Part shown: piece by piece, positions 45,590-57,387 of the stretch | How the letters are laid out: every line of letters starts with the position of its first letter | How positions within the stretch are numbered: the first letter of the stretch is position 1 | NCBI GenBank assembly: GCA_017511865.1 | Contig: JAFWIQ010000015.1 | Location: 1-64,000, forward strand | Direction of reading: 5' to 3' | DNA from: Candidatus Saccharimonadota bacterium | GTDB lineage: Bacteria > Patescibacteriota > Saccharimonadia > Saccharimonadales > Saccharimonadaceae | DNA: 64,000 bases | Position numbers and translations under genes: made by a program | Notes under the pieces: generated by a model | Databases searched by the model: none | Told to the model about the DNA's origin: nothing | The model's input: only the letters and a program-made list of their open reading frames with translations

Positions 45590-47326
45590 ATGGGAAAATC
45601 AATAAAAAAGCGTGGGCAAAAAATCTTGGGGAAGTTTTTTGTGCTCTCCGCCAAAGCGAGCGAAGAAGGAAAGGAACATATCCGCGAGAACCTAATCAAG
45701 CGGCTTTCTCATATCGAGGGCATACGTCTGTTGGTTCTTGAATGGGGGCTACTAGCGGTTGCACTGATTTTGCTTGCGACGGCTCAGGCTTTTTGGTTTG
45801 GTGATTCCTACGCCGAAAATGCCTATACTTCCGGTGGCGCCTACACGGAGGCGAGCATTGGAGACGTCAATTCGATGAACCCACTATTTGCCACGACTGA
45901 TAGTGAGAAAATTCTGAGTAAATTGATGTTTGCCACAATCGCTACGGTTGATTATTCTGGGCATCCCGGCATCGGTCTAGCAAAGACTATCATGCCAAGC
46001 GAAAATGGTAAAGTTTGGACAATAAAATTAAGAGATGGACTAAAGTGGTCTGATGGCGAGCCAATTACAAACGAGGATGTGATTTTTACCGCCGAGCTAA
46101 TCAAAAACCCAGTGGTGAATTCTATTTACAGCTCCAATCTTTCAAATGTAAAAGTATCAGAAAACGAGAACGGCGAAATTGTGTTTAACCTGCCGGCTAC
46201 CTATGCCGATTTTATTTCCGCATTAAACATTCCGGTGGTACCAAAACATATTCTCGGAGACACCGATCCAAAAACTTTAGTAGAAAATAATTTTTCTAAT
46301 TCGCCGGTGACATCTGGAGCATTTAATTTCAACGCCATACAGTCCATTCCTTCTGGTAGCGAAAAGGTTATATATTTATCTTCGAACCCATATTATTATA
46401 AAGGCAAGACATTGTTAAATAGCTTCGCCATACATACTTATAGCGACAAAGAGGGTGTGATTAATGCTATAAATTCTGGAGCTGTTACAGCTACGGCCGA
46501 ATTGTCTGGGGCCGATGCGACAAGAATCACTTCTAGGCAGTTCAATCAGAAGAATTCGAGCCTAAGCTCTGGGGCTTTTATATTCTTTAACACAAAAAAC
46601 GAGTTCTTGAATAATCGTGCGTTTAGAGCAGCGGTTAGACAGGGCATTGATTTGGAGAAAATTCGCGCTTCGGCGCCGGGGACTACAGCATTGGATTATC
46701 CATTACTCAATTCACAAATTGCGATTTCTAGGTACCCCGAAATCCCAGCACGCGATTTTGAAGCCGCAAAGGTAACAATTAGTGAGTTAGCAAACGGAAA
46801 TCCTATAAAAATTGAAATTGCAACAATTAACTCTGGATATTTGCCAGAAGTGACGAATACTATAGCCGAAGAATTAAGGGCTTTGGGGCTTGAGGTAAAC
46901 GTTTCTACCTATGAAGAAAACCAGGATTTTATTACCAATGTGATATCCAGGCGCAATTACGACATCTTGGTGTATGAGGTAGAATTTGGAGCAGATCCAG
47001 ACCTATTGCCATATTACCATTCGTCACAAGCATCGATGGCGGGGCTTAATCTGTCAAACTATCGAGATACGTTGGTTGATGATTTATTGCTTAGTGCCAG
47101 GGACACGCTGGATGAGTCTCTGCGTATAAAAAAATATGAAACTTTTTTGGAATATTGGGTGACCGGTGTGCCTGCAATTGCCCTATACCAACCAAATTTA
47201 ACCTATTTTTACAATAAAAACGTAAGGACTTTTAGTAATGACGTTAGGCTCGTCACCGCAATTGACCGTTTTTCTGATATAGCTGATTGGGCGGTGACAA
47301 AAACTACAAAAAATAAGACTCCTTAG
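45590..47326 (+). CDS. Membrane-anchored family-5 (peptide/oligosaccharide) solute-binding protein
   Basis: 578 residues. A basic cytosolic N-terminus of about 50 residues and one transmembrane helix (about 52-73) replace the usual lipoprotein signal. The SBP_bac_5 fold follows: SIGDVNSMNPLFATT, WTIKLRDGLKWSDGEPITNEDVIFT (in parts), SGAFNFN, FRAAVRQGIDLEKIR, and late SARDTLDESLRIKKYE and PAIALYQPNLTYFY. It would deliver peptides to an ABC importer, whose other genes are not here. It begins 1 nt after the secG stop. Confidence 0.9.
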   Translation: MGKSIKKRGQKILGKFFVLSAKASEEGKEHIRENLIKRLSHIEGIRLLVLEWGLLAVALILLATAQAFWFGDSYAENAYTSGGAYTEASIGDVNSMNPLFATTDSEKILSKLMFATIATVDYSGHPGIGLAKTIMPSENGKVWTIKLRDGLKWSDGEPITNEDVIFTAELIKNPVVNSIYSSNLSNVKVSENENGEIVFNLPATYADFISALNIPVVPKHILGDTDPKTLVENNFSNSPVTSGAFNFNAIQSIPSGSEKVIYLSSNPYYYKGKTLLNSFAIHTYSDKEGVINAINSGAVTATAELSGADATRITSRQFNQKNSSLSSGAFIFFNTKNEFLNNRAFRAAVRQGIDLEKIRASAPGTTALDYPLLNSQIAISRYPEIPARDFEAAKVTISELANGNPIKIEIATINSGYLPEVTNTIAEELRALGLEVNVSTYEENQDFITNVISRRNYDILVYEVEFGADPDLLPYYHSSQASMAGLNLSNYRDTLVDDLLLSARDTLDESLRIKKYETFLEYWVTGVPAIALYQPNLTYFYNKNVRTFSNDVRLVTAIDRFSDIADWAVTKTTKNKTP

Positions 47327-47352: not shown

Positions 47353-47443
47353 GCGCCTGTGGTGGAATTGGTAGACACGCTACCTTGAGGTGGTAGTGGC
47401 CATATTTACGGCTGTGCTAGTTCGAGTCTAGTCAGGCGCACCA
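47353..47443 (+). tRNA. tRNA-Leu (anticodon GAG), CCA encoded; target of an integrative element
   Basis: Acceptor GCGCCTG with CAGGCGC, anticodon stem CTACC/GGTAG with loop TTGAGGT giving anticodon GAG, long variable arm, T loop TTCGAGT, CCA at 47441-47443. TGT-TATAAT at 47336-47344 is the promoter. The last 21 nt (47423-47443) recur exactly at 56319-56339, and the recombinase gene on the other strand ends inside the tRNA at 47428. Confidence 0.95.
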
Positions 47444-49044
47444 GACCGAAATTCTTTGGTCGAAGCATTGTTGAATATATGCTCTAGAGGTTTCTTCCAT
47501 CTGAAAGAGACCTCATTTTTGTTGTTGATTTCTAGGTTCGTAAGCATATTTCGGACTAACTGGTCTTTTTGCCAAGAATCGGCAGATTTCATCTTTTTAC
47601 CGATGGAATCTAGCTGGTTCGTAAGCTCGTCTAAGATTTCGCGGACTTGGTCCGGATCGAAGATTTTAGTGTCAATTTCGTCGCGCTCGGTCTGTAAAGT
47701 TGCAATATCGTTCCGGCATTCTTCAAGTTGCTCGTTTACCATTTGTTTCGCCTCTTTTGGCGCATCTTTGCCGAGGTCTATGAAAGCCTGGGCAAGTTCG
47801 TCCTGACGGCGTTTCTTGGCTTTAATGGCGGCATTAACGCGGAGTTTTTCCGCAATAAGTTCGTTATGGCGAACATTAATATAATCCGTTAGACTGTTTT
47901 GAATCTTCGCAACATCTCTCTTTGTGAAATGTAGGCTATCTAGTGTTTTGTAGAGTGCATCTAGTACTACTTGTGCGCGGATGTTCTTTTGCTTTCTTGT
48001 GCACTCTGGGTTCCCGCAACGAAAGTAGAGGTATTTCTTGCCAGTACGCGATTTCGAGCGTGCTACGTGCATGAAATTACCGCATTCGCCACATTTAACC
48101 ATTTGACGAAATGGGATAAATACTTTACCTTCTTCGGCTTTTACGGAAGCCGAAACGACCTTTTTAAGATTCCTGCGTTTTGCCTGAATCAATCCGAATT
48201 CTTCTTCGGTGATCATTGGCTTGAAATCTGGTAAGATTTCTCTTAAATCTACCTTTTGTCCGCCTTGGACGAGTATTCCATAGTAAAACGGATCGCTTAA
48301 GATTGAACCCAGCACCGAGATACTATTATAGACAGTGATTTTCCGTTTATTTTTGTTTTTGCGATTGATTTTCGTCATACGGTGGACGTCGTTTTGGCGC
48401 CAGAACTCGATAATATCTCTTTGGCTATATCCCTCAAGATACATATCAAATCCTCGCCTAATGAAGTCGAAATTCTGATCTGGCTCGTAAAAACCTGTTA
48501 CTTCATTGCGGTTATATCCCCATTTTGGCATACCGCCAGATTTTCCTTGGGCGAGGTTAGAATTCACACCACGCTGGACGCTTTCGCTTAAGTGTTCTGA
48601 ATATTGCTTAGACATGGCAAAAACGATATTAAGGAGCAGTTTCGCGTTTGAATCGTTCGTAAAATTAAACATCGGGAATTTTAGGTCCTTAATTACACCG
48701 TTATCGACCATATCAACAATCATCCCGGCTTCTAATGAGTTACGCGCTAAGCGGTCTGGGTGCCAGGTTAGGATTCCATCATATTTACCGGCTTCAAGGT
48801 CTTTTAACATTCTAGAGAATATCGGGCGGCGTCCGGAAATTTTCGCCGAGTGTGATTCTTTTAAAATATCCACGACGACTAAGCCGTGGGTTTCCGCATA
48901 AGCTAAGCAATCTTTGATTTGGTCTGGGAGGGATTTAGCTTGCGCGCCAACATCCTCAGAAGATTTGCGAGCATAAAGAACGTAGCGAAGTAAAGGTTGC
49001 TCGCTCTCGCTGGTTTTTATTGTTGCAATTTGGTTACCTCTCAT
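47428..49044 (-). CDS. Large serine recombinase (site-specific integrase)
   Basis: 538 residues. The resolvase-type catalytic domain has the Ser in YARKSSED and Arg in HPDRLARNSLE. A recombinase domain (KWGYNRNEVTGFYEP to PFYYGILVQGG), a zinc ribbon (CGECGNF, then FRCGNPECTRK) and a long coiled coil (about 385-490) follow. The C-terminal NNASTKEFRSGAPD reads through the att core; residues GAPD and the stop codon come from the tRNA-Leu 3' end. TGA-TATAAT (minus, ending 49052) is 7 nt before the ATG, so it is leaderless. It probably integrates and excises the element. Confidence 0.94.
   Translation of the reverse strand: MRGNQIATIKTSESEQPLLRYVLYARKSSEDVGAQAKSLPDQIKDCLAYAETHGLVVVDILKESHSAKISGRRPIFSRMLKDLEAGKYDGILTWHPDRLARNSLEAGMIVDMVDNGVIKDLKFPMFNFTNDSNAKLLLNIVFAMSKQYSEHLSESVQRGVNSNLAQGKSGGMPKWGYNRNEVTGFYEPDQNFDFIRRGFDMYLEGYSQRDIIEFWRQNDVHRMTKINRKNKNKRKITVYNSISVLGSILSDPFYYGILVQGGQKVDLREILPDFKPMITEEEFGLIQAKRRNLKKVVSASVKAEEGKVFIPFRQMVKCGECGNFMHVARSKSRTGKKYLYFRCGNPECTRKQKNIRAQVVLDALYKTLDSLHFTKRDVAKIQNSLTDYINVRHNELIAEKLRVNAAIKAKKRRQDELAQAFIDLGKDAPKEAKQMVNEQLEECRNDIATLQTERDEIDTKIFDPDQVREILDELTNQLDSIGKKMKSADSWQKDQLVRNMLTNLEINNKNEVSFRWKKPLEHIFNNASTKEFRSGAPD
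47437..47477. repeat. Left attachment-site repeat of the integrative element
   Basis: 41 bp beginning in the tRNA acceptor stem and running into the recombinase gene; matches 54033-54073 with two differences. It contains a short hairpin (GACCGAA-ATTC-TTTGGTC). Confidence 0.85.
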
Positions 49045-49141
49045 TAGTTTTATTATATCATAACAGAGGTGGGAATGCTAGAATAAGGAAAATCTCCGAC
49101 CTTACGACCGGAGATTTTAAGCTATTTGAATCATGTTTATT
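49045..49141. other. Intergenic hairpin between recombinase and the 47-residue gene
   Basis: A 10-bp stem (about 49088-49097 with 49108-49117) with A/T ends could act as a terminator on either strand. The recombinase promoter lies at 49052-49060. No ORF of note. Confidence 0.55.
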
Positions 49142-49285
49142 TTAATAATAGAATTCGACTTCGCCATTTTTACCCACCGATTTCCATTGATTTTGCGCTA
49201 TGCGTTCTGGCGTAACTATAATGCTTTTTAGAACGCTGAATAGACTAGCGATAGCCGCGGACGTTTCTTTAAATTCTTCGTCCAT
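49142..49285 (-). CDS. Small 47-residue protein upstream of the recombinase
   Basis: The ATG at 49285 (minus) has AAGGAG 7 nt upstream. The protein starts MDEEFKETSAAIASLF, continues VLKSIIVTPERIAQNQW and ends GEVEFYY. It is soluble and acidic with helical potential. It lies between the recombinase and a minus-strand TGG-TATAAT promoter near 49440. By position it could be a recombination directionality factor or regulator, but no family is recognised. Confidence 0.62.
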   Translation of the reverse strand: MDEEFKETSAAIASLFSVLKSIIVTPERIAQNQWKSVGKNGEVEFYY

Positions 49286-49576
49286 AAGGTACTCCTTGCG
49301 TAGCTCGAAAGTTTACGAGCTTAGATGTGGCATAAACGCTCCGCAATTAGCATTCATGCGTATAAATAAAAAATGCGCCCATTTTTTAACTGCCGCATTA
49401 CTTGGACTTCGAGAACATCTCTAACTCGAAGCTAGCTCTATTATACCACATCCGTGATGTAGCGCGTACGTACATATGGCATATTGCACGATAATACATT
49501 ATATGGTACAATAAATATTGTCGGAACCTTCCTATAGTACGAAGCATTTTATTATTGTGAAACGGAGGCGAATCTG
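49286..49576. promoter_or_regulatory. Divergent promoter region inside the element
   Basis: On the minus strand a TGG-TATAAT box (about 49446-49438) starts a long leader holding inverted repeats (CTTCGAG with CTCGAAG near 49408-49430; AGCTCG with CGAGCT at 49303-49322) and a T-rich hairpin near 49365-49385 that could be an attenuator. On the plus strand TGG-TACAAT (about 49504-49512) leads, through a leader of about 55 nt with a CGGAGG site, to the gene at 49577. Confidence 0.55.
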
Positions 49577-50095
49577 ATGAGCACAAGCTTCATAATCGCC
49601 CAGATGTTTGGGGTGTTTGGGCTCATTGCAATGGTAATCTCTCTTTTCCAGAAAGACCGCAGTCGAATGTTGTTTTTCGTCGTCTTCAATTGCATATTCT
49701 TCATTGTAGAATATCTGTTGTTGGGGGCTTTCGCCGGAATGGGTGGCAACATTGTTGCATTAGCGAGAACGGTCCTGTTCAAGAAGAAGGACGAAGATGA
49801 GAGATTCAACAAGATTTGGATTTACATCAGTGTCATGGTTGCGTACACAGTGATGACATTTTTAACCTTTGATGGACCGATTAGCCTTCTACCAATTATA
49901 GCGGAATACATTTACGCGACTGCTCTTTGGCAGACGAATGTATCTCACATCCGTTATGGTACGGCAATTATGGTCGTATTTTGGTTAGTATATGACATTA
50001 TTGTCTGCGCTTACCCCTCGGCTATTTGTGATACAATCGTATTCACCTCAACTATTGTTTCAATAGTGAAGTTTTGGAAGAAAACTGATCACTAA
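49577..50095 (+). CDS. YgjV-family inner-membrane protein
   Basis: 172 residues with five to six hydrophobic helices (about 5-22, 28-52, 75-98, 100-118, 122-145, 148-165). The pattern around FGLIAMVISLFQKDRSRML, AFAGMGGNIVALART and WQTNVSHIRYG resembles YgjV/Imp-YgjV integral membrane proteins of unknown function. GGAGG site 9 nt before the ATG, own promoter and terminator. As element cargo it may be a transporter or sensor; no evidence decides. Confidence 0.78.
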   Translation: MSTSFIIAQMFGVFGLIAMVISLFQKDRSRMLFFVVFNCIFFIVEYLLLGAFAGMGGNIVALARTVLFKKKDEDERFNKIWIYISVMVAYTVMTFLTFDGPISLLPIIAEYIYATALWQTNVSHIRYGTAIMVVFWLVYDIIVCAYPSAICDTIVFTSTIVSIVKFWKKTDH

Positions 50096-50102
50096 GCCAC
50101 TA

Positions 50103-50132
50103 AGGGTGCCCAAATGGGTGCCCTGCATTTTT
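50103..50132 (+). terminator. Rho-independent terminator
   Basis: 8-bp stem with two G-U pairs (50104-50111 with 50116-50123), AAAT loop, T run. Confidence 0.78.
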
Positions 50133-50240
50133 AAGGTAATAAAATGTTCTGACACTTGCTTTTATTGTCAGTTTGTGATATTATCTCATAAAGATTTGAT
50201 TGGGATCATTATCTAGTATTTTTATAAGGAGGTTTTGCAT

Positions 50241-51467
50241 ATGACAGAATTGGAGATGCGAACGGAAAAACTTTTGACTGATATCTCAAGGTTGATAGAC
50301 GAGGTGGTTTCACTTGATGAGTTGAGGTCGCTTTTGAATAGTGGCAGAAAGCTTAAGATTAAGTACGGTGTTGACTGTACAGCCCCGTTTCTTCATCTTG
50401 GCCATGCGGTCAATCTTTGGGCCATGAGACGTTTTCAGGAGGATGGACACAAGGTAATTTTTCTCATCGGTAATTTCACCAGTAAAATCGGTGATCCTAC
50501 CGGGAGGAGTACTACCCGCAATATGTTGACCGACGAAGAAATTGCGGTTGCCGCTGATGAATTCGTCAAGCAAGTCAGTACTGTGCTCATTACGGATGAT
50601 CCTGACGTGTTCGAGATTCGGCATAATGCCGATTGGTTTTCTGAGATGCCACTTGCTGACTTTATCGGACTTTGTTCTCAGGTAACTACTTCCAGAATGT
50701 TGTCCAGAGATATGTTCAAAAAGCGCATGCAGAGTGGCGACGAGATTCATCTCAATGAATTACTGTACCCTATTCTTCAGGGTTTCGATTCGGTAAAGCT
50801 TGAATCTGATTTGACGATCGTCGGTACTGACCAGTTGTTCAACGAGATGATGGGAAGAAGTTTTCAGGAAAGATTTGGACAGCCTTCGCAAGTTGTTATG
50901 ACGACTAAAATTACGAAGGGTCTTTGGGGTGAAGAAAAGCAAAGCAAGAGTATCGGAAATTTCGTTGCCCTTACTGATTCTAGCAGGGATAAGTTTGGCA
51001 AGATTATGACCCTCGGTGACGATCGTATTATCGATTGGTTGAAAGTGTACACCGACATAGGCATGGAAAGGATAACATTCCTTGAGCGGTCGATTAAAGA
51101 AGGTATGCTTAATCCGAGAGATGCGAAAGTTGAACTTGCTCACGCTATAGTCAGGAGATATCATGGCGAAGAAATAGCAGATGCCGAACGTAAGTTCTTC
51201 TTCGATACCTTCTCTAAGAAGGCGTTCCCCGACGACGCTCCCGTAATTGCTTTTTCCAAGATGAATACCCCTAACACGGTTTTTGAGCTTGTCAAAGCCT
51301 GTCATCCTGATTTTTCGAGTAGCCAAATTCGCCGACTGATCACTCAGGGAGCAATTGTTCTCAATGACGAAAAAATCACTGATCCGCAAGCCTCAATCAG
51401 TCTTATCGAAGGTGAAAATAATCTCAAGACTGGGAAACGCACCTTCTTCAAGGCCGTAGTTTCCTAA
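50241..51467 (+). CDS. tyrS: Tyrosyl-tRNA synthetase carried on the integrative element
   Basis: 408 residues. Class I signatures: HLGH in TAPFLHLGHAVNL and KQSKSIGNFV (variant KMSKS). Tyrosine-pocket and dimer regions are YPILQGFDSVKLE and VGTDQLFNEMMGR, and there is a C-terminal S4 domain (SSSQIRRLITQGAIVLNDEKI). It charges tRNA-Tyr. The start at 50241 follows AAGGAGG. TTGCTT, 17 bp and TATTAT (near 50155-50185) form the promoter, with a leader of about 50 nt. Carriage on a mobile element next to a TrpRS suggests an auxiliary, perhaps inhibitor-resistant copy (inference). Confidence 0.93.
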   Translation: MTELEMRTEKLLTDISRLIDEVVSLDELRSLLNSGRKLKIKYGVDCTAPFLHLGHAVNLWAMRRFQEDGHKVIFLIGNFTSKIGDPTGRSTTRNMLTDEEIAVAADEFVKQVSTVLITDDPDVFEIRHNADWFSEMPLADFIGLCSQVTTSRMLSRDMFKKRMQSGDEIHLNELLYPILQGFDSVKLESDLTIVGTDQLFNEMMGRSFQERFGQPSQVVMTTKITKGLWGEEKQSKSIGNFVALTDSSRDKFGKIMTLGDDRIIDWLKVYTDIGMERITFLERSIKEGMLNPRDAKVELAHAIVRRYHGEEIADAERKFFFDTFSKKAFPDDAPVIAFSKMNTPNTVFELVKACHPDFSSSQIRRLITQGAIVLNDEKITDPQASISLIEGENNLKTGKRTFFKAVVS

Positions 51468-51473
51468 AAAAAT

Positions 51474-51502
51474 GGGAGAACCGAAAGGTTCTCCCTCTTT
51501 TT
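51474..51502. terminator. Terminator between tyrS and the convergent TrpRS gene
   Basis: 9-bp perfect stem (51474-51482 with 51487-51495), GAAA tetraloop, T run on the plus side and A run on the other. Confidence 0.9.
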
Positions 51503-52514
51503 ATTTGTCCCATTTTTCACAAATTAAGGACAGGTCGTGCGCAAAATCAACCTTATCTTTCGCCCACATGACAGGATCGGAGTCACAGTGTTTAGCGAGT
51601 GTATTAAGCGTTTTGTTATCGTATAACAGAACGTGGCACATGAGTTGATACGCTATGGAATCGTTGTGGTTTACTGCTTCTTCGGGCAATCGCGTAATTA
51701 TCTTTATGATCTCTCTCTCAGTCATACCAGCAGTAATCGAAGAACCACGTAAGCTTTTGCTCATCTTCGGTTGTCCGTTAAGTCCTCTTATTATGGAGGA
51801 GAAAAGACCACAGATATTCACGTCCAGATCGAGTCGCCCAGCTATGTCGTTTGCCTTAGGAACGTACGGGTGTTCATCAATTCCGGAAAGAACAATAATA
51901 TTTTTGTAATTTCCAACAAATCCTTCGTGGATAAAATCGGAAAACATTAATAGAATTGCCTGCTTTACAGCAAAACTCATACCGGAATAGATGCCCAATT
52001 TCTCGTAATACTGGTAGATGCTTTCCTCTACGTCCTGGAAATCTTCATCTTGGACTTTAGGGGAAATAAGAAAAGCTGTTTTCATAATCTCGGCGTGGTC
52101 GAGCTGATTCCGGATTGTACCAAAATTCGCATCGAAACCAAGATTTTTGACAAAATTCGCATATTTCTCTACGTTCTTAGTTACACTAGTGATACTCGAA
52201 GACCGAGAACTATACGAATCGATATCTCCCAGAATAATCTGGACTTTATATCCTCTCTTCTGAAAATAAATCCCGCGAAGAATCTGAGAGATTGTTCCAA
52301 TGTGCGGTTCATGATTTGTTCCTACTCCGAGGATAATGAGCGTGTTTTCTTTTGAAATTCCGTGAATGACTTCAGTGTTCAGATTGTACCCGCAAAGCCA
52401 GTTTTGCATTTCGTCGAATGAGAATCCCGGAAGCAAATCCGTCATCTCATTGCAGAACTTGTAGCCGAACCTTTCGACTATGTCTTGGTAGTAAAATTCA
52501 TCATAACGCAACAT
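51501..52514 (-). CDS. Tryptophanyl-tRNA synthetase of archaeal/eukaryotic type
   Basis: 337 residues. Class I PHIGT in TNHEPHIGTISQIL and PKMSKSLRGSSI (KMSKS). SGIDEHPYVPKANDIAGRLD corresponds to the GxDQ-PY-R-DIA region of archaeal and eukaryotic TrpRS rather than the bacterial GxDQ-xHLEL form. An N-terminal domain (RFGYKFCNEM, LPGFSFDEMQNWL) is present. The start is 52514, because AAAGGGGGA precedes that ATG; two in-frame ATGs lie further up. It would charge tRNA-Trp. Convergent with tyrS across a shared terminator. Confidence 0.86.
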   Translation of the reverse strand: MLRYDEFYYQDIVERFGYKFCNEMTDLLPGFSFDEMQNWLCGYNLNTEVIHGISKENTLIILGVGTNHEPHIGTISQILRGIYFQKRGYKVQIILGDIDSYSSRSSSITSVTKNVEKYANFVKNLGFDANFGTIRNQLDHAEIMKTAFLISPKVQDEDFQDVEESIYQYYEKLGIYSGMSFAVKQAILLMFSDFIHEGFVGNYKNIIVLSGIDEHPYVPKANDIAGRLDLDVNICGLFSSIIRGLNGQPKMSKSLRGSSITAGMTEREIIKIITRLPEEAVNHNDSIAYQLMCHVLLYDNKTLNTLAKHCDSDPVMWAKDKVDFAHDLSLICEKWDK

Positions 52515-52615
52515 AGGATTTCCCCCTTTCATTATTTTGCGCGTGTAAAAGTACATCCCTTATAGAACTAGACAAATTATAACATATAATGCAGAAATAT
52601 GCTATAATAAAGACT

Positions 52616-53719
52616 ATGCAAGTCAAAAATAATTACAATGAATGTTTAACCAATTTAGCATGTTCAATTAGAAATTATTTTGGGCTACCTTTTAATCATA
52701 AAACTCTAGAGTTTATCGATGAGTATCTAGAAGAACACGAACCTACTAATGTTGTTGTGATTTTACTTGATGGTATGGGGACGAAAATTATTGAGCGAAC
52801 CCTGCCAGAAGATTCTTTTTTCCGCAAAAATTTAGCAAAGTCTATTACTACTGTTTTTCCAGCAACTACAACTGCTGCTACTACTTCAATTCGCACTGGG
52901 CTAAATCCAGTTGAACATGGGTGGCTAGGTTGGACTACATATATCAAGCCGATTGATAAAGTTATAACTCTTTTTATGAATTCCGAAAAAGGTCATGACG
53001 GAGAGACCTGTGAGGAATTTTTGGGCGTAAAAAATAAGTTGGCTTCAGAGACTATAGTAGATGAAATAAATAAGCAAGGCAAATTTAAGGGTCTGGAATT
53101 AATGCCGTTTGGCGAAAATGCCTATAATAGCCTAGACGATATGCTCGAGAAAATCAAGGCAGAGACGAAAAAGCCTGGCAAGAAATATATTTATGCGTAT
53201 GATGTTGAGCCGGACGGAACCATGCACGAAACCGGGCCTGATAGTGGAGCTTCGAAGAAACTAATCATTGAAAGAAATGATAAAATTGAACAATTAGCAA
53301 AAGAGTTAAAAGATACATTGTTGATTGTTCTATCTGATCACGGTCATATTAAAGTTAAGAACATCTTCTTAAATAAATATCCTGACATCTTAGATTTGCT
53401 CGACCGTAAAACTTCAATCGACCAGAGAGCCGTTGCTTTTAAAGTTAAAGATGGCAAGAAAGAAGAATTCAGGAACAAATTCGAAAATTATTTTGGCAAT
53501 ACCTCCTATGATTTATACGATACTAAAGACGTTGTTGAATCAAAATTGTTCGGCGATGGACTAGAAAATGAACTATTCGAGCCTGCACTCGGTGATTTTC
53601 TAGCTATTGCAAAAAGCACTGAATGTTTAGTCGCTCCAGGCGACGAAGTACTTGTTTCTCACCACGCAGGCTATACTGATGACGAGGTATATGTACCAAT
53701 TATTGTTAAACAATGCTAG
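52616..53719 (+). CDS. Alkaline-phosphatase-superfamily phosphodiesterase
   Basis: 367 residues. Metal site ILLDGMG, nucleophile Thr in TTVFPATTTAATTSIRTG, DVEPDGTMHETGPDS, LIVLSDHGHIKV and LVSHHAGYTD: the order of type I phosphodiesterase/nucleotide pyrophosphatases. There is no signal peptide, so it is cytosolic. It would split phosphodiester or pyrophosphate bonds of nucleotides or nucleotide sugars. The start at 52616 is set by TGC-TATAAT ending 7 nt upstream; an ATG at 52589 precedes the promoter. Confidence 0.88.
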   Translation: MQVKNNYNECLTNLACSIRNYFGLPFNHKTLEFIDEYLEEHEPTNVVVILLDGMGTKIIERTLPEDSFFRKNLAKSITTVFPATTTAATTSIRTGLNPVEHGWLGWTTYIKPIDKVITLFMNSEKGHDGETCEEFLGVKNKLASETIVDEINKQGKFKGLELMPFGENAYNSLDDMLEKIKAETKKPGKKYIYAYDVEPDGTMHETGPDSGASKKLIIERNDKIEQLAKELKDTLLIVLSDHGHIKVKNIFLNKYPDILDLLDRKTSIDQRAVAFKVKDGKKEEFRNKFENYFGNTSYDLYDTKDVVESKLFGDGLENELFEPALGDFLAIAKSTECLVAPGDEVLVSHHAGYTDDEVYVPIIVKQC

Positions 53720-54023
53720 ATAACGTTATAAGATAAATAAACTAGAACAAAAAAGCTCGAGCTTAAATTCATTATATAGTATGTAGCATATGCATATTGC
53801 AGTAGGCCTCTCGCCGGCAAAGCCAGCATGGCTAATAAAATAGGTGCTTTCGTCTTCTGGGGCTTAAAGCAATGGCAGCCCCAGCAGATTTAGGAGACTA
53901 TAAACCAATAGGCTTACGCTTTCAGATCTAGCCTTCTAAAGTTTTGCTCGCTTTTGGCGAGCTAACGAAGGCGCCCATACTTTTATTTTTTAATGCTTTG
54001 TACTAAACTAGGTTCTAGCGACA
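53720..54023. other. Non-coding right end of element 1 with several stable hairpins
   Basis: A 12-bp palindrome (AAGCTCGAGCTT, near 53749). Hairpins at 53821-53833 (5 bp), 53857-53884 (perfect 8-bp stem) and 53931-53972 (6-bp outer stem 53931-53936/53967-53972, and 6-bp inner stem 53946-53951/53957-53962). A T-rich tract follows at 53980-53990. ORFs here are at most about 20 codons. It could be a structured RNA or a regulatory/transfer region of the element. Confidence 0.55.
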
Positions 54024-54083
54024 TCATAAAGTCGCACCAGACCGAAATTCTTCGGTCGAAGCATTATTGAATACGTGTTCTGA
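54024..54083 (-). pseudogene. C-terminal remnant of a second serine recombinase
   Basis: On the minus strand this reads SEHVFNNASTEEFRSGATL then stop. It matches the end of the recombinase at 47428 (EHIFNNASTKEFRSG) up to the att core. A stop codon lies directly upstream and no other recombinase sequence remains. Confidence 0.75.
54033..54073. repeat. Internal attachment-site repeat
   Basis: 41-bp direct repeat of 47437-47477 with two differences (T to C, G to A). It holds the 7-bp tRNA end CGCACCA and the hairpin GACCGAA-ATTC-TTCGGTC. Confidence 0.85.
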
Positions 54084-54122
54084 AACTTACGCCCAAGCCT
54101 CCTTTTATTCTGGGGGCTCTTT

Positions 54123-54734
54123 TTATAAAATTGTGCAAGAAACCCCGTCAAAAAACAAAACATCGTCATCGGTCAGCGGATGTACTTTATACCCCTTAGA
54201 CTCCAGCTCCTTAGTTGCCTTTTTTACGCGCTCGAAGTACTTTTTCTTATGTGCATGTGGAATTATTACATCTTTGAAAACCCCCATCCCATCAAAATTA
54301 TCCAGTTTGGGTGCCAGGCTTTGGTCATCAAATTCTTCTGCCCCCTCGATTGTCGGACAGCAAACAATAGAGCCAGCACTTGAGCCAATATATATACCAT
54401 CCTTCTCTATAAATTCCTTTATAACCTTATCTGCTCCACTTTCTTTCAGTTTCTCCATTAGGTAAAAAGTATCTCCACCCGCAACCAAGACAACGTCAGC
54501 TCTATCAATAGCTTTTCGGATTTCTTCTTCATTTTTATTTTTTATATCCATCTCAACAACGTTAAGACCATATTTTTCGAGCGCAAGTTTATCAGCTTCA
54601 ACAAAATCTTTATTATCAAACGGATCGCCAGCGGTTGGGATAAAAACTGCTTTCTTTCCAACAAAATCGCGACCCCCATGTTCAATGATTTTCGCCATGG
54701 TAACCATAGCATAAGACGCAAGATATAGCCTCAC
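54123..54734 (-). CDS. Peptidase family S51 (dipeptidase E-like) protein
   Basis: 203 residues. LVAGGDTFYLMEKL and the nucleophile elbow IGSSAGSIV with Ser near 120 are the S51 signatures; a His in VIIPHAHKK is the probable catalytic partner. Members hydrolyse Asp-X dipeptides or cyanophycin fragments. GTG start at 54734 with GGAG 5 nt upstream. It begins 2 nt after the GNAT stop, so the two form an operon in element 2. Confidence 0.9.
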   Translation of the reverse strand: MRLYLASYAMVTMAKIIEHGGRDFVGKKAVFIPTAGDPFDNKDFVEADKLALEKYGLNVVEMDIKNKNEEEIRKAIDRADVVLVAGGDTFYLMEKLKESGADKVIKEFIEKDGIYIGSSAGSIVCCPTIEGAEEFDDQSLAPKLDNFDGMGVFKDVIIPHAHKKKYFERVKKATKELESKGYKVHPLTDDDVLFFDGVSCTIL

Positions 54735-54736
54735 AA

Positions 54737-55249
54737 TTACTCCTTAATTTTCATTATCATCTCTAAATCATGAGCCATAAACCCACTCTTTTTGTAAAAA
54801 TCTACGGCACTAACGTTGTCCGACAAAACTAGTAATTTAATACTGGTACATCCATGGGCTATGAAATAATCTTTCATTTTATCTAATAATTCTCGGCCCA
54901 CGCCACACCCTCTGTGGCCTGGCTTCACATACAGCAAGCCGATCCAGCCTTCTTTTGATGGGTTATGAGACAAATCATAAATTTCATCATCTCCTTTTTC
55001 ATGTTCGATGATGACGCCCTGAATAAAACCAACTATAACACCATTCTCTTCAGTAACAAATATTTTACCATTCATATTCTTGACGTCATCTATCATTTTT
55101 TGCATATAGCGATGTGCATCATTAACGCTTCTATATGGTAAAGATTCGCGAGACTGGTCAATCTCAGAAAAATATTTCTGCAATTCAAACTGCATCTCGT
55201 CTATTCTTTTGTAGTCGTTTTCGTTTACTTCCCTAATCATGTCTTTCAT
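54737..55249 (-). CDS. GNAT-family N-acetyltransferase
   Basis: 170 residues from ATG 55249. Acetyl-CoA loop LYVKPGHRGCGVGRELLDKM (R-x-x-G-x-G/A), then SIKLLVLSDNVSAVDFYKKSGF, the classic last motif. The frame is open 54 nt further up, but those codons contain a minus-strand TGC-TATAAT (about 55269-55261), so the start must be downstream; ATG 55240 is also possible. Substrate unknown; detoxification or resistance is a common role for mobile GNATs (inference). Confidence 0.88.
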   Translation of the reverse strand: MKDMIREVNENDYKRIDEMQFELQKYFSEIDQSRESLPYRSVNDAHRYMQKMIDDVKNMNGKIFVTEENGVIVGFIQGVIIEHEKGDDEIYDLSHNPSKEGWIGLLYVKPGHRGCGVGRELLDKMKDYFIAHGCTSIKLLVLSDNVSAVDFYKKSGFMAHDLEMIMKIKE

Positions 55250-55432
55250 AACTTTCAATACAATTATAGCACGACGACCACTGCTTGTTTGAATTGAAAA
55301 CATTGTTTAAAAAACAATACTTTCCTATTCTCGTCAAGAAAAATTTATACCTCTGTTTTCTGCACGAAACATGACGGAACACTGTTTGTGTACAAGTGGA
55401 CGCTTTCCGTTGACTTATTATCGTTTTATTTT

Positions 55433-55873
55433 CTAAAAATCGTTACCGTAGTTTGGCGTGATATCAATTGGTTCAGCCCATAAAAAGCGTTTCTCAACCG
55501 ACCAACGTCGGACAAAATACATGCGAAGAATTGCTTCGTTTACGTCGCGGTCGTTTAGGGCACGTGGAATATAAGCGAGAGAGAAGTAATATTTATCTTC
55601 ATCTTCGTGGTCTAAATGGATATAAATACGTTTTCCGTAGCCGTAACGCATTTCTTTATCCCAAGTTCCGAGCAAAGTTTCATCATCAAACTCCCTAAGC
55701 GCCCATTTGGCGTCTCGGACACTTGAATCAACAAGCACCATCTCTTTTAAGTCTTTATATTGATACGAAGCCAATATACCCTCGTGTTTTTCGTATAATT
55801 CAGTTAGTTGCCTTGCGGTAACTTCTATTGGTCCACCATTTTTTGGCTTTTTGTAGGGGCGACGTTTTGCCAT
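55433..55873 (-). CDS. Hypothetical protein, 146 residues
   Basis: Basic N-terminus (MAKRRPYKKPKNGG), helix (TARQLTELYEKHEG), then a strand-rich part with YGKRIYIHLDHEDEDKYYFSLAYIP and RRWSVEKRFLWAEP. AGAGG 6 nt before the ATG and a minus-strand TATAAT near 55925 support expression. No recognised family. It sits in element 2 and is likely cargo. Confidence 0.7.
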   Translation of the reverse strand: MAKRRPYKKPKNGGPIEVTARQLTELYEKHEGILASYQYKDLKEMVLVDSSVRDAKWALREFDDETLLGTWDKEMRYGYGKRIYIHLDHEDEDKYYFSLAYIPRALNDRDVNEAILRMYFVRRWSVEKRFLWAEPIDITPNYGNDF

Positions 55874-56140
55874 ATTGCCTCTTTTCTTTTAGCGGTGCGC
55901 CCGAAAGCGGTATTACTTATATTATACCTCTTTAGCAACAAAAAAAGAGAGTGTCGCCAGCTCCATACAGTGCCTTGTTTCACTCTATACTGTTATTATA
56001 TCACTAGTTACACAATTCATTGACATTGTTAGCTCTAAGGAGAGCTTTTATAATGATAATGGCGACATTTGGCTGTCTCGCCCGACATCTTTTACTTAAT
56101 TTTATACTACTGGTTCGTAAATGCGTTGGTTGTCGTGACT
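55874..56140. other. Non-coding stretch inside element 2
   Basis: Holds the minus-strand promoter of the gene at 55433 (TATAAT near 55925) and a short GCTCT-AAGG-AGAGC hairpin near 56031. A 32-codon plus-strand ORF (56052-56150) has no convincing support. Nothing else recognised. Confidence 0.5.
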
Positions 56141-56323
56141 CTAATATATAAAATCCCGTTCATTGACAATAATATTACTTTCGACTAGAATATAGGTGGG
56201 GCGGTAGTCCGAATGCGAAATTATGTAATCAATTGCATTACAGAGTGGTTCGTAAAGATCTAGATTACGCGCACCATTAAAAATATTGCGACCCAGAACC
56301 GACTCGGACCTTCGGTGCGAGTC
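56141..56323 (-). pseudogene. 5'-truncated gene remnant at the right end of the element
   Basis: The minus strand is open for about 60 codons with no start codon. The last 46 residues (GARNLDLYEPLCNA, then HSDYRPTYILVESNI and NERDFIY) have a normal protein composition, while the upstream part falls in repeat-like DNA. The protein-like part begins next to a 14-bp sequence (56269-56282) that repeats at the right attachment site (56332-56345). A gene cut by recombination at an att copy would look like this. Confidence 0.4.
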
Positions 56324-56339
56324 TAGTCAGGCGCACCAT
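56319..56339 (+). repeat. Right attachment site: displaced copy of the tRNA-Leu(GAG) 3' end
   Basis: Exact 21-bp match to 47423-47443, including CCA. Beyond it lies resident sequence leading to the gene at 56371. Confidence 0.88.
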
Positions 56340-56370: not shown

Positions 56371-57387
56371 ATGAAGAAGAATTTTGGAAAGATTTCGCTG
56401 ATGATTTTGGCGATTTTTTTAGGTTTTGGTTTTTTTAACGTTGCAGATATTTACGCGGAAGAGCAAACGGGCGAGTCGGTGGACGAGTCGGCGGTAACGT
56501 CTGGGACTAGTATTAGTTTGATGCCGGTTAGTAAGTTTTTGCAGATTTCGTCAAATTCTATTTATGACAATACACTCACGGTTAGCAATGACGGCGGTAC
56601 TCCCATAAGAATTGAGGTGTATGCAGCCCCCTATTCGTATATATACTCAGATGAAGAAAATGCGTACAAGCTAGGATTTAATAATGAGAATAATTTCACG
56701 CAGATTTCGCGCTGGATTTCGTTTAAAAATACTGAAGGCAACTATGTAAGTAAAGCATTTTTTGACATTGACCCAAACAGCTCATTGGAGGTTTCGTATA
56801 GAATTTCAACTCCTGACAATATTCCTAGTGGTGGGCAATATGCAGTGATTTTTGCGCATACTTTGACTGGCGTGGTTTCTACGAGCGGAATAAAAACAGA
56901 GGCTAGTCCAGGACTAGTCGTATATGGTCGCTCTACGGAAGGTGAAGCCGTGGTGTCGGCAGAAATTTCCGACTTAATAATAGGTCAAGGCAACCTTGAT
57001 GGAAGTGCCAATAAAAATAATTTCTACGGCGTAGCAAAAGTAAAAAACAACGGAAATGTAGATTTTACGGCGATGGGGACACTAAAGGTTGATGCGATTT
57101 TGGGTGGTTCAAGCTACGAAACACCGAGCACTATGGGTAGGGTATCGATAATCCCTGGGGCTGAGCTGGCGGTTACGGACGAGTGGACAGACACCCCAAG
57201 TTTTGGGATTTATAAGGTTACCTGGACAGTAAAGGCGGGTGAGCAGGTGGAGACCATAGATAAGATAGTATTTCTGATTCCGCCCTTTGTGATTATCACT
57301 TCAATAATACTCTTGACATTTCTTATTGCTTGGATTATAGTTATGTTTAGGAGACGTAAAGAACGCCGTTCTAGATTGGCTGTCTAG
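56371..57387 (+). CDS. Secreted DUF916-like surface protein with C-terminal membrane anchor
   Basis: 338 residues. Signal peptide (about 5-30, ending DIYAEEQ), a beta-rich extracellular region (ISLMPVSKFLQIS, DNTLTVSNDGGTPI, SYRISTPDNIPSGGQYAVIFAH) resembling WxL-associated DUF916 proteins, then one transmembrane helix (about 305-328) and RRRKERR. The AGGAGG site is 5 nt before the ATG. Only 31 bp separates it from the right att copy, so before the insertion it lay directly behind tRNA-Leu(GAG). Confidence 0.85.
   Translation: MKKNFGKISLMILAIFLGFGFFNVADIYAEEQTGESVDESAVTSGTSISLMPVSKFLQISSNSIYDNTLTVSNDGGTPIRIEVYAAPYSYIYSDEENAYKLGFNNENNFTQISRWISFKNTEGNYVSKAFFDIDPNSSLEVSYRISTPDNIPSGGQYAVIFAHTLTGVVSTSGIKTEASPGLVVYGRSTEGEAVVSAEISDLIIGQGNLDGSANKNNFYGVAKVKNNGNVDFTAMGTLKVDAILGGSSYETPSTMGRVSIIPGAELAVTDEWTDTPSFGIYKVTWTVKAGEQVETIDKIVFLIPPFVIITSIILLTFLIAWIIVMFRRRKERRSRLAV

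Follow-up and report, generated by a model that had tools for sequence, protein, structure and literature searches.

A probable composite integrative island at a tRNA-Leu(GAG) gene of a Saccharibacteria-like bacterium, and a large serine recombinase gene that appears to span its attachment site

We analysed a stretch of 64,000 nucleotides (the window), part of a 67.6-kb contig from the incomplete 0.6-Mb genome of a Saccharibacteria-like bacterium of the candidate phyla radiation (CPR), in which a tRNA-Leu(GAG) gene is adjoined by a gene for a large serine recombinase (LSR). We conclude that the 8,833 bp from 47444 to 56276, made up of a unit A (47444-54039) and a unit B (54040-56276), very probably form a composite integrative island that was inserted by the LSR at the CCA end of the tRNA gene. 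The attachment site lies within the coding region of the LSR, and integration orphans the last 44 codons of the gene. The features discussed below are collected in Table 1.

The LSR has close relatives in Saccharibacteria and matches the Pfam families PF00239 (Resolvase), PF07508 (Recombinase) and PF13408 (Zn_ribbon_recom), each over the cut-off. The motif R26 K27 S28 and residues R98 and R101, which we take to hold the catalytic serine and arginines, were invariant in 31 sequences. An AlphaFold model (pLDDT 80), which covers the 538-aa tail-less form found in the integrated element, has long helices at 375-460 in keeping with the long coiled coil of the family, and in it the canonical LSR ends near residue 516-528. 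The last 16 bp of the integrated gene, stop codon included, are antisense to tRNA-Leu(GAG), so that the antisense of the tRNA gene supplies the stop. When the ends of the island are joined as in a circle, with 56276 next to 47444 (predicted junction ...GATTACGCGCACCA/GACCGAAATTC...), the LSR frame instead reads on without interruption and gives a protein of 578 aa with a conserved tail. Joining at the right end of unit A (54039) leaves the LSR without this tail (ending in FRSGATL and a stop); a circle that joins approximately 54032 to 47437, as proposed when the sequence alone was first read, is thus not the best reading.

Right ends from the genus that depart from the common pattern by no more than one mismatch behave alike, in that the LSR frame runs across the core into the right end for 43-44 codons to nearly the same stop; one member of this set was cut by the end of its contig, and one further near-match reads the same. 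Likewise, the tail is open for 44-58 codons in eight loci from other lineages and at other tRNAs (L151, L152, L154, L164, L166, L167, L168 and L176). The pN/pS of the tail was 0.11-0.56 in the LSR frame and mostly above 1 in the other frames, and by this measure the tail is under purifying selection in the LSR frame. At solitary right ends no LSR open reading frame (ORF) precedes the tail. In tandem arrays the LSR of the next element reads into it, producing contiguous LSR-plus-tail ORFs, one of which is intact (L112/L275); the tailed L155 copy appears frameshifted. Since the tail lacks an LSR start in the integrated state, selection on it suggests that it is expressed from circles or tandem arrays, and hence that mobility recurs.

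Two kinds of repeat bear on the ends of the element. The 8-bp core GCGCACCA is present at 47436-47443 and again at 56269-56276, where it closes a right end, GGTTCGTAAAGATCTAGATTACGCGCACCA, of a type common to elements with different LSRs and tRNAs: 30 nt with RGTTC at the start and the terminal 8-10 nt of the target tRNA at the finish. It was found that RGTTC lies at distance 30 in 13 of 69 tRNA-tail copies near LSR elements (12 distinct places), and at any other distance in at most 2 of the 69, except for 4 at distance 25 that are tRNA 3' copies. In tRNA genes RGTTC is the T-loop motif and is found 25 nt from the CCA end, as against 30 nt in the right end of the element. A zinc-ribbon motif placed 5 bp further out in attP than in attB is a known feature of serine integrase architecture (PMC3783163). 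We suggest that the zinc-ribbon domain of the LSR would read the T-loop motif, with 25 and 30 nt representing the 5-bp difference between attB and attP, and that crossover would fall in the acceptor end of the tRNA, within the core.

The second kind of repeat is longer. A direct repeat of 24 nt with one mismatch links 47420-47443 to 56315-56338 and is exact over 21 nt (56318-56338); another, of 52 nt and 88% identity, links 47434-47485 to 54030-54081. The sequence-only reading had reported an exact 21-bp recurrence of the tRNA 3' end and a 41-bp left end recurring at 54033-54073. Both recur, with the provisos that the 21-bp copy sits one base to the left of the 56319-56339 given there and that the repeated left end is similar rather than identical. 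That reading had also placed the outer boundary of the element at the 21-bp copy, which would follow if this copy were the true partner of the tRNA end, with crossover in the T-loop and an element reaching from 47444 to 56338. The repeat is indeed exact over 21 bp, and the Dehalococcoides DsiB islands have 20-bp repeats that start from the T-loop (PMC3146451). However, in G029 and G035 the 62-bp unit that contains the copy stands by itself 3' of the tRNA gene and no recombinase is present, and G018, G026 and G009 each have it beyond a distinct right end that bears the RGTTC and tail signature. We regard T-loop crossover as quite improbable and reject the 21-bp repeat as attR, since the unit is present where the island is not. 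As such units occur without a recombinase, the segment at 56277-56338 is read as an older scar, now at the flank of the island and perhaps the product of another integrase, and the right end of the LSR element is placed at 56276. In the window and in these five genomes the scar units share a hairpin, GACTCG-N-CTTCG-N-CGAGTC; where its inner stem differs from genome to genome, the changes compensate each other. A search with Rfam found only the tRNA and a chance match.

Insertion is seen by comparison with relatives. In four congeneric species (G025, G003, G010 and G004) the site is empty: the solute-binding gene, tRNA-Leu(GAG) and the homologue of the gene at 56371 are contiguous, with a gap of 30-83 bp between the tRNA gene and the homologue. 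In G026, G009, G018 and G019 the tRNA gene is followed by other LSR elements or LSR remnants. The window thus has the arrangement expected of a tRNA-gene genomic island, with an empty target in relatives and with an intact tRNA gene, the island and a displaced copy of the tRNA 3' end on its far side, this last point being weaker than usual because the displaced copy is the short, 8-bp core. The sequence-only reading had described tandem integrative elements in tRNA-Leu(GAG) between core-genome flanks, had suggested a comparison with strains lacking the insert, and had named a gene order conserved in all relatives with no empty site as the outcome that would count against it. Relatives that lack the insert exist, and in them the tRNA gene stands directly before the 56371 homologue, which shows both flanks to be core genome; the conserved order without an empty site did not occur. 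Together with the sites occupied by other elements, these empty sites back an integrative element in this tRNA gene. The tandem, or composite, nature is borne out by the repeated left end, and the proposed serine recombinase and accessory genes correspond to the LSR at 47428-49044, with its Resolvase, Recombinase and Zn-ribbon domains, and to the cargo. The GC content of the island is about that of its flanks. We also noted that in approximately one-third of the congeneric genomes (G001, G002, G007, G008, G018, G023, G030, G032 and G035; for example L099, L100 and L101) tRNA-Leu(GAG) and its promoter are inverted relative to the neighbouring genes, apparently as a result of several separate events.

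To place the LSR among its relatives we used 80 related loci from named genomes, mostly Patescibacteria of many lineages, 74 of which extend at least 100 bp past the LSR stop. In 59 of these 74 loci a tRNA or transfer-messenger RNA (tmRNA) gene converges on the LSR, whose own end lies inside or abuts the 3' end of that gene; of the other ORFs on the same contigs with a length of 200 aa or more, 3 of 656 are so placed (Fisher p about 1e-68). In the main group the frame of the LSR relative to the tRNA is identical in 38 of 39 cases. The stop codon often comes from the tRNA itself, for example as a TGA read antisense to the T-loop TTCAA (overlap 22), the reading of TTCAA as T-loop being our own interpretation. 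LSRs of a more distant group 2 (L180-L220; Gln, Ser, Asn and other targets) also end in tRNA 3' ends, in another frame that is shared by 17 of 19. Leu(GAG) and Leu(TAG) carry nearly identical LSRs, other tRNA genes and in one case a tmRNA gene (L168) are occupied by different elements of like architecture, and the LSR tree needs several target switches. On these sequence comparisons, targeting of tRNA and tmRNA genes appears to be general to LSRs of this kind across Patescibacteria. According to a 2015 description serine integrases were not known to target tRNA genes; a survey of mycobacterial prophages assigned tRNA and tmRNA attB sites to tyrosine integrases (PMC10654092), and a large survey of LSRs nowhere uses the word tRNA (PMC10083194). 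The single precedent that we found in the literature is Dehalococcoides DsiB at tmRNA (PMC3146451), and a later report of a tRNA-targeting LSR may exist.

A possible explanation for a coding region that spans attP is that the full-length, tailed LSR made from a circle or a tandem array would integrate the element, and that integration would exchange it for the tail-less form, which may block excision or change it. In the model the canonical LSR ends near residue 516-528, which puts the lost tail beyond the canonical fold. This is also what would be seen if the tail were dispensable read-through, the overlap of LSR and attP had no function and the tail-less form were the working enzyme, and McMurdie et al. 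held low-efficiency translation with a variable C-terminus to be possible for DsiB. Such an account is unlikely, however, given the purifying selection on the tail, its fixed stop position and the constant frame of the LSR relative to the tRNA in 38 of 39 loci.

Several observations do weigh against the island and switch as we describe them. The tail is not needed to complete the canonical LSR domains, and the integrated LSR may for that reason be fully active. No circle was seen, and a junction search of viral contigs found none; the pattern used was the 21-bp sequence of the scar, and this search therefore says little. Conserved tail residues (Glu-Pro/Leu) are encoded by RGTTC as well, and a role of the motif in DNA binding is consequently not separable from its coding role. 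A mirrored motif was sought in the P' arm and none was clear, and only 28 of 60 related loci had any tail copy, many being without a right end in the available DNA. Finally, unit A has a decayed right end of its own. With these points in mind we propose, as a tentative generalisation, that Patescibacteria carry widespread serine-integrase islands for tRNA and tmRNA genes, in which a T-loop-like motif lies 5 bp further out in attP and recombination switches the integrase from a tailed form in the circle to a tail-less form in the integrated state, a built-in control of directionality without a separate factor.

Unit A contains the intact LSR along with genes for a YgjV-like protein, a second tyrosyl-tRNA synthetase (TyrRS), a tryptophanyl-tRNA synthetase-like (TrpRS-like) protein and a phosphodiesterase, whereas unit B carries an LSR relic, a PepE-like peptidase, a GNAT protein, the conserved protein U146 and the consensus right end. 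The recurrence of the left end at 54030-54081, the sequence at 54011-54039 that resembles a right end of unit A, and the tandem arrays present in relatives would all suit two independent tandem elements that each move alone, as had been proposed from the sequence alone: A (47444-54039), which has its own LSR, next to a decayed B (54040-56276). The right end of A, though, has the motif one base off and yields no tail, whereas that of B fits the consensus and encodes the tail; we consider two independent elements rather unlikely.

The core TyrRS and TrpRS genes are located elsewhere in the genome (G000:C6 and G000:C11), outside the island, and the cargo synthetases are therefore extra. The core TyrRS gene is intact, as an apparent stop falls outside the ORF. 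The extra enzymes perhaps confer resistance to synthetase inhibitors, which is speculation. The TrpRS-like gene had no relative in the 196 other related genomes searched (E<=1e-30). The TyrRS and TrpRS-like genes are adjacent and on opposite strands (50235-52556), and at the end of unit A approximately 290 bp (53720-54010) have no ORF, no relatives among the fetched loci and no Rfam match. In unit B, a PepE-like gene 88% identical to that of the island lies beside an LSR remnant at tRNA-Leu(TAA) in G023. Relatives of U146, sometimes in multiple copies, were identified in 39 further related genomes, almost all of which belong to the same genus; the protein is possibly a marker of these islands, and from its position a possible candidate for an accessory or directionality factor. 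Its predicted fold model was of poor quality.

Table 1. Features of the island at tRNA-Leu(GAG) and of its flanks (window coordinates).
Feature	Coordinates	Strand	Remarks
Left-flank core gene, solute-binding protein family 5	45590..47326	+	Pfam SBP_bac_5; adjoins tRNA-Leu(GAG) in many congeneric genomes
tRNA-Leu(GAG), target gene	47353..47443	+	ARAGORN, Rfam tRNA; 3' part is the B half of attL
LSR	47428..49044	-	538 aa integrated, 578 aa predicted in circle
attL core GCGCACCA, acceptor end plus CCA	47436..47443	+	Identical in sequence to 56269-56276
Conserved segment upstream of LSR	49045..49449		Alignment (blastn) 73-83% in closely related elements L141, L113, L143, L144, L002
Cargo, YgjV-like inner membrane protein	49577..50095	+	Pfam Imp-YgjV, E 5e-31
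Cargo, second TyrRS	50235..51467	+	TIGR00234; start may be ATG at 50241
Cargo, TrpRS-like class I synthetase	51501..52556	-	Pfam tRNA-synt_1b
Cargo, phosphodiesterase / nucleotide pyrophosphatase	52589..53719	+	Pfam Phosphodiest
Unit A right end, decayed, and A/B boundary	54011..54039	+	GGTTC at 29 nt, no tail
LSR 3'-end relic, left end of unit B	54033..54119	-	55% identity, 2 stops
Unit B cargo, peptidase S51 / PepE-like	54123..54734	-	Pfam Peptidase_S51
Unit B cargo, GNAT acetyltransferase	54737..55303	-	Pfam Acetyltransf_1
U146, conserved protein near right ends of related elements	55433..55873	-	No Pfam family
LSR C-terminal tail, 44 codons plus stop	56141..56275	-	Joined to LSR in circle only
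Right end (P arm plus core), GGTTCGTAAAGATCTAGATTACGCGCACCA	56247..56276	+	Pattern common to elements with different LSRs
Older scar	56277..56338	+	62-bp unit: hairpin GACTCG..CTTCG..CGAGTC plus exact 21-bp tRNA 3' copy (56318-56338)
Right-flank core gene	56371..57387	+	Directly 3' of tRNA-Leu in G025, G003, G010, G004

LSRs are common in prophages and that of the window matches a PHROG integrase family, which raised the possibility that the island is the remnant of a prophage or conjugative element. It can be seen, however, that there are no phage structural, relaxase or conjugation genes among the Pfam, NCBIfam and PHROGs matches in the island, the PHROGs matches being to integrase, TyrRS and acetyltransferase families only. 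Related elements are 3-11 kb in size with defence or unassigned genes as cargo. IMG/VR contains 14 related LSRs, all distant (24-32% for most, with two short segments at 41%), and none of the 11 viral-contig LSRs examined (L221-L231) has a tRNA at its end. We therefore rejected a prophage or conjugative origin, which seems to us very improbable. The island, with no phage or conjugation genes found in it, does not encode its own transfer between cells, which would probably depend on passive DNA uptake or a helper element. Among related islands in other CPR genomes, L143, L152, L154 and L164 have anti-phage defence cargo, comprising type III restriction-modification, ApeA-like HEPN, C5 (cytosine) methylase with Z1 helicase and PifA-like KAP ATPase genes.

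Serine integrases are genome-engineering tools, and from the present set come many natural enzymes that target conserved tRNA 3' ends and whose attP sites can be predicted. It also provides a rule for locating island ends in CPR genomes (a tRNA tail, RGTTC at -30 and a tail in the LSR frame), some of the islands carrying defence genes. Should the tail govern direction, the product of recombination would itself encode a simple switch, and bacteria would have a counterpart to the suicidal integrases of archaea.

By the domain tests the enzyme belongs to the large serine recombinases, and not to the SSV-type or staphylococcal cassette chromosome (SCC) families. SCC elements use the rlmH site. Their recombinases act as a pair (CcrA/CcrB), and the LSR has only a weak profile match, to CcrB (65 of 900 bits, far below the curated cut-off). 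With the large serine integrases of phages (A118, Bxb1 and phiC31 type) it shares the domain layout and the 5-bp outward shift of the outer attP motif; most described LSRs, however, use protein-coding sites, and gene splitting is not reported for them in the literature that we found.

The ssrA islands of Dehalococcoides (PMC3146451) are closer. They too have an LSR of approximately 540 aa (DsiB) at the left end, its 3' end always overlapping attL, are inserted at the 3' end of an RNA gene and form tandems, and the authors considered that DsiB is perhaps fully functional only in the circle or beside another island (PMC3146451). They differ in having tmRNA as the only target, T-loop crossover, a 20-bp repeat, a small recombinase DsiA and a six-gene module. 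Islands of the type in the window use many tRNA genes (and one tmRNA gene) with an 8-bp core at the CCA end and have no DsiA; the target here is tRNA-Leu(GAG) rather than ssrA, and no gene for a second small serine recombinase was found in 49045-56276. A right-end tail was not reported for the DsiB islands in that study.

Like the LSR of the window, the archaeal 'suicidal' tyrosine integrases target tRNA genes, that of SSV1 included. In these enzymes (SSV1, pTN3 and pT26-2), described in a 2021 review as exclusive to archaea, attP lies in the integrase gene and the gene is split by integration (PMC8371274), and the same arrangement can be read from the sequence of the LSR gene. The enzymes are of unrelated family and mechanism, the one in the window being a serine and not a tyrosine recombinase, and in archaea the catalytic domain is separated, whereas here only a C-terminal tail of 44 aa is lost. 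In its working the element would resemble a DsiB island, and its splitting of the integrase gene recalls the suicidal integrases of archaea.

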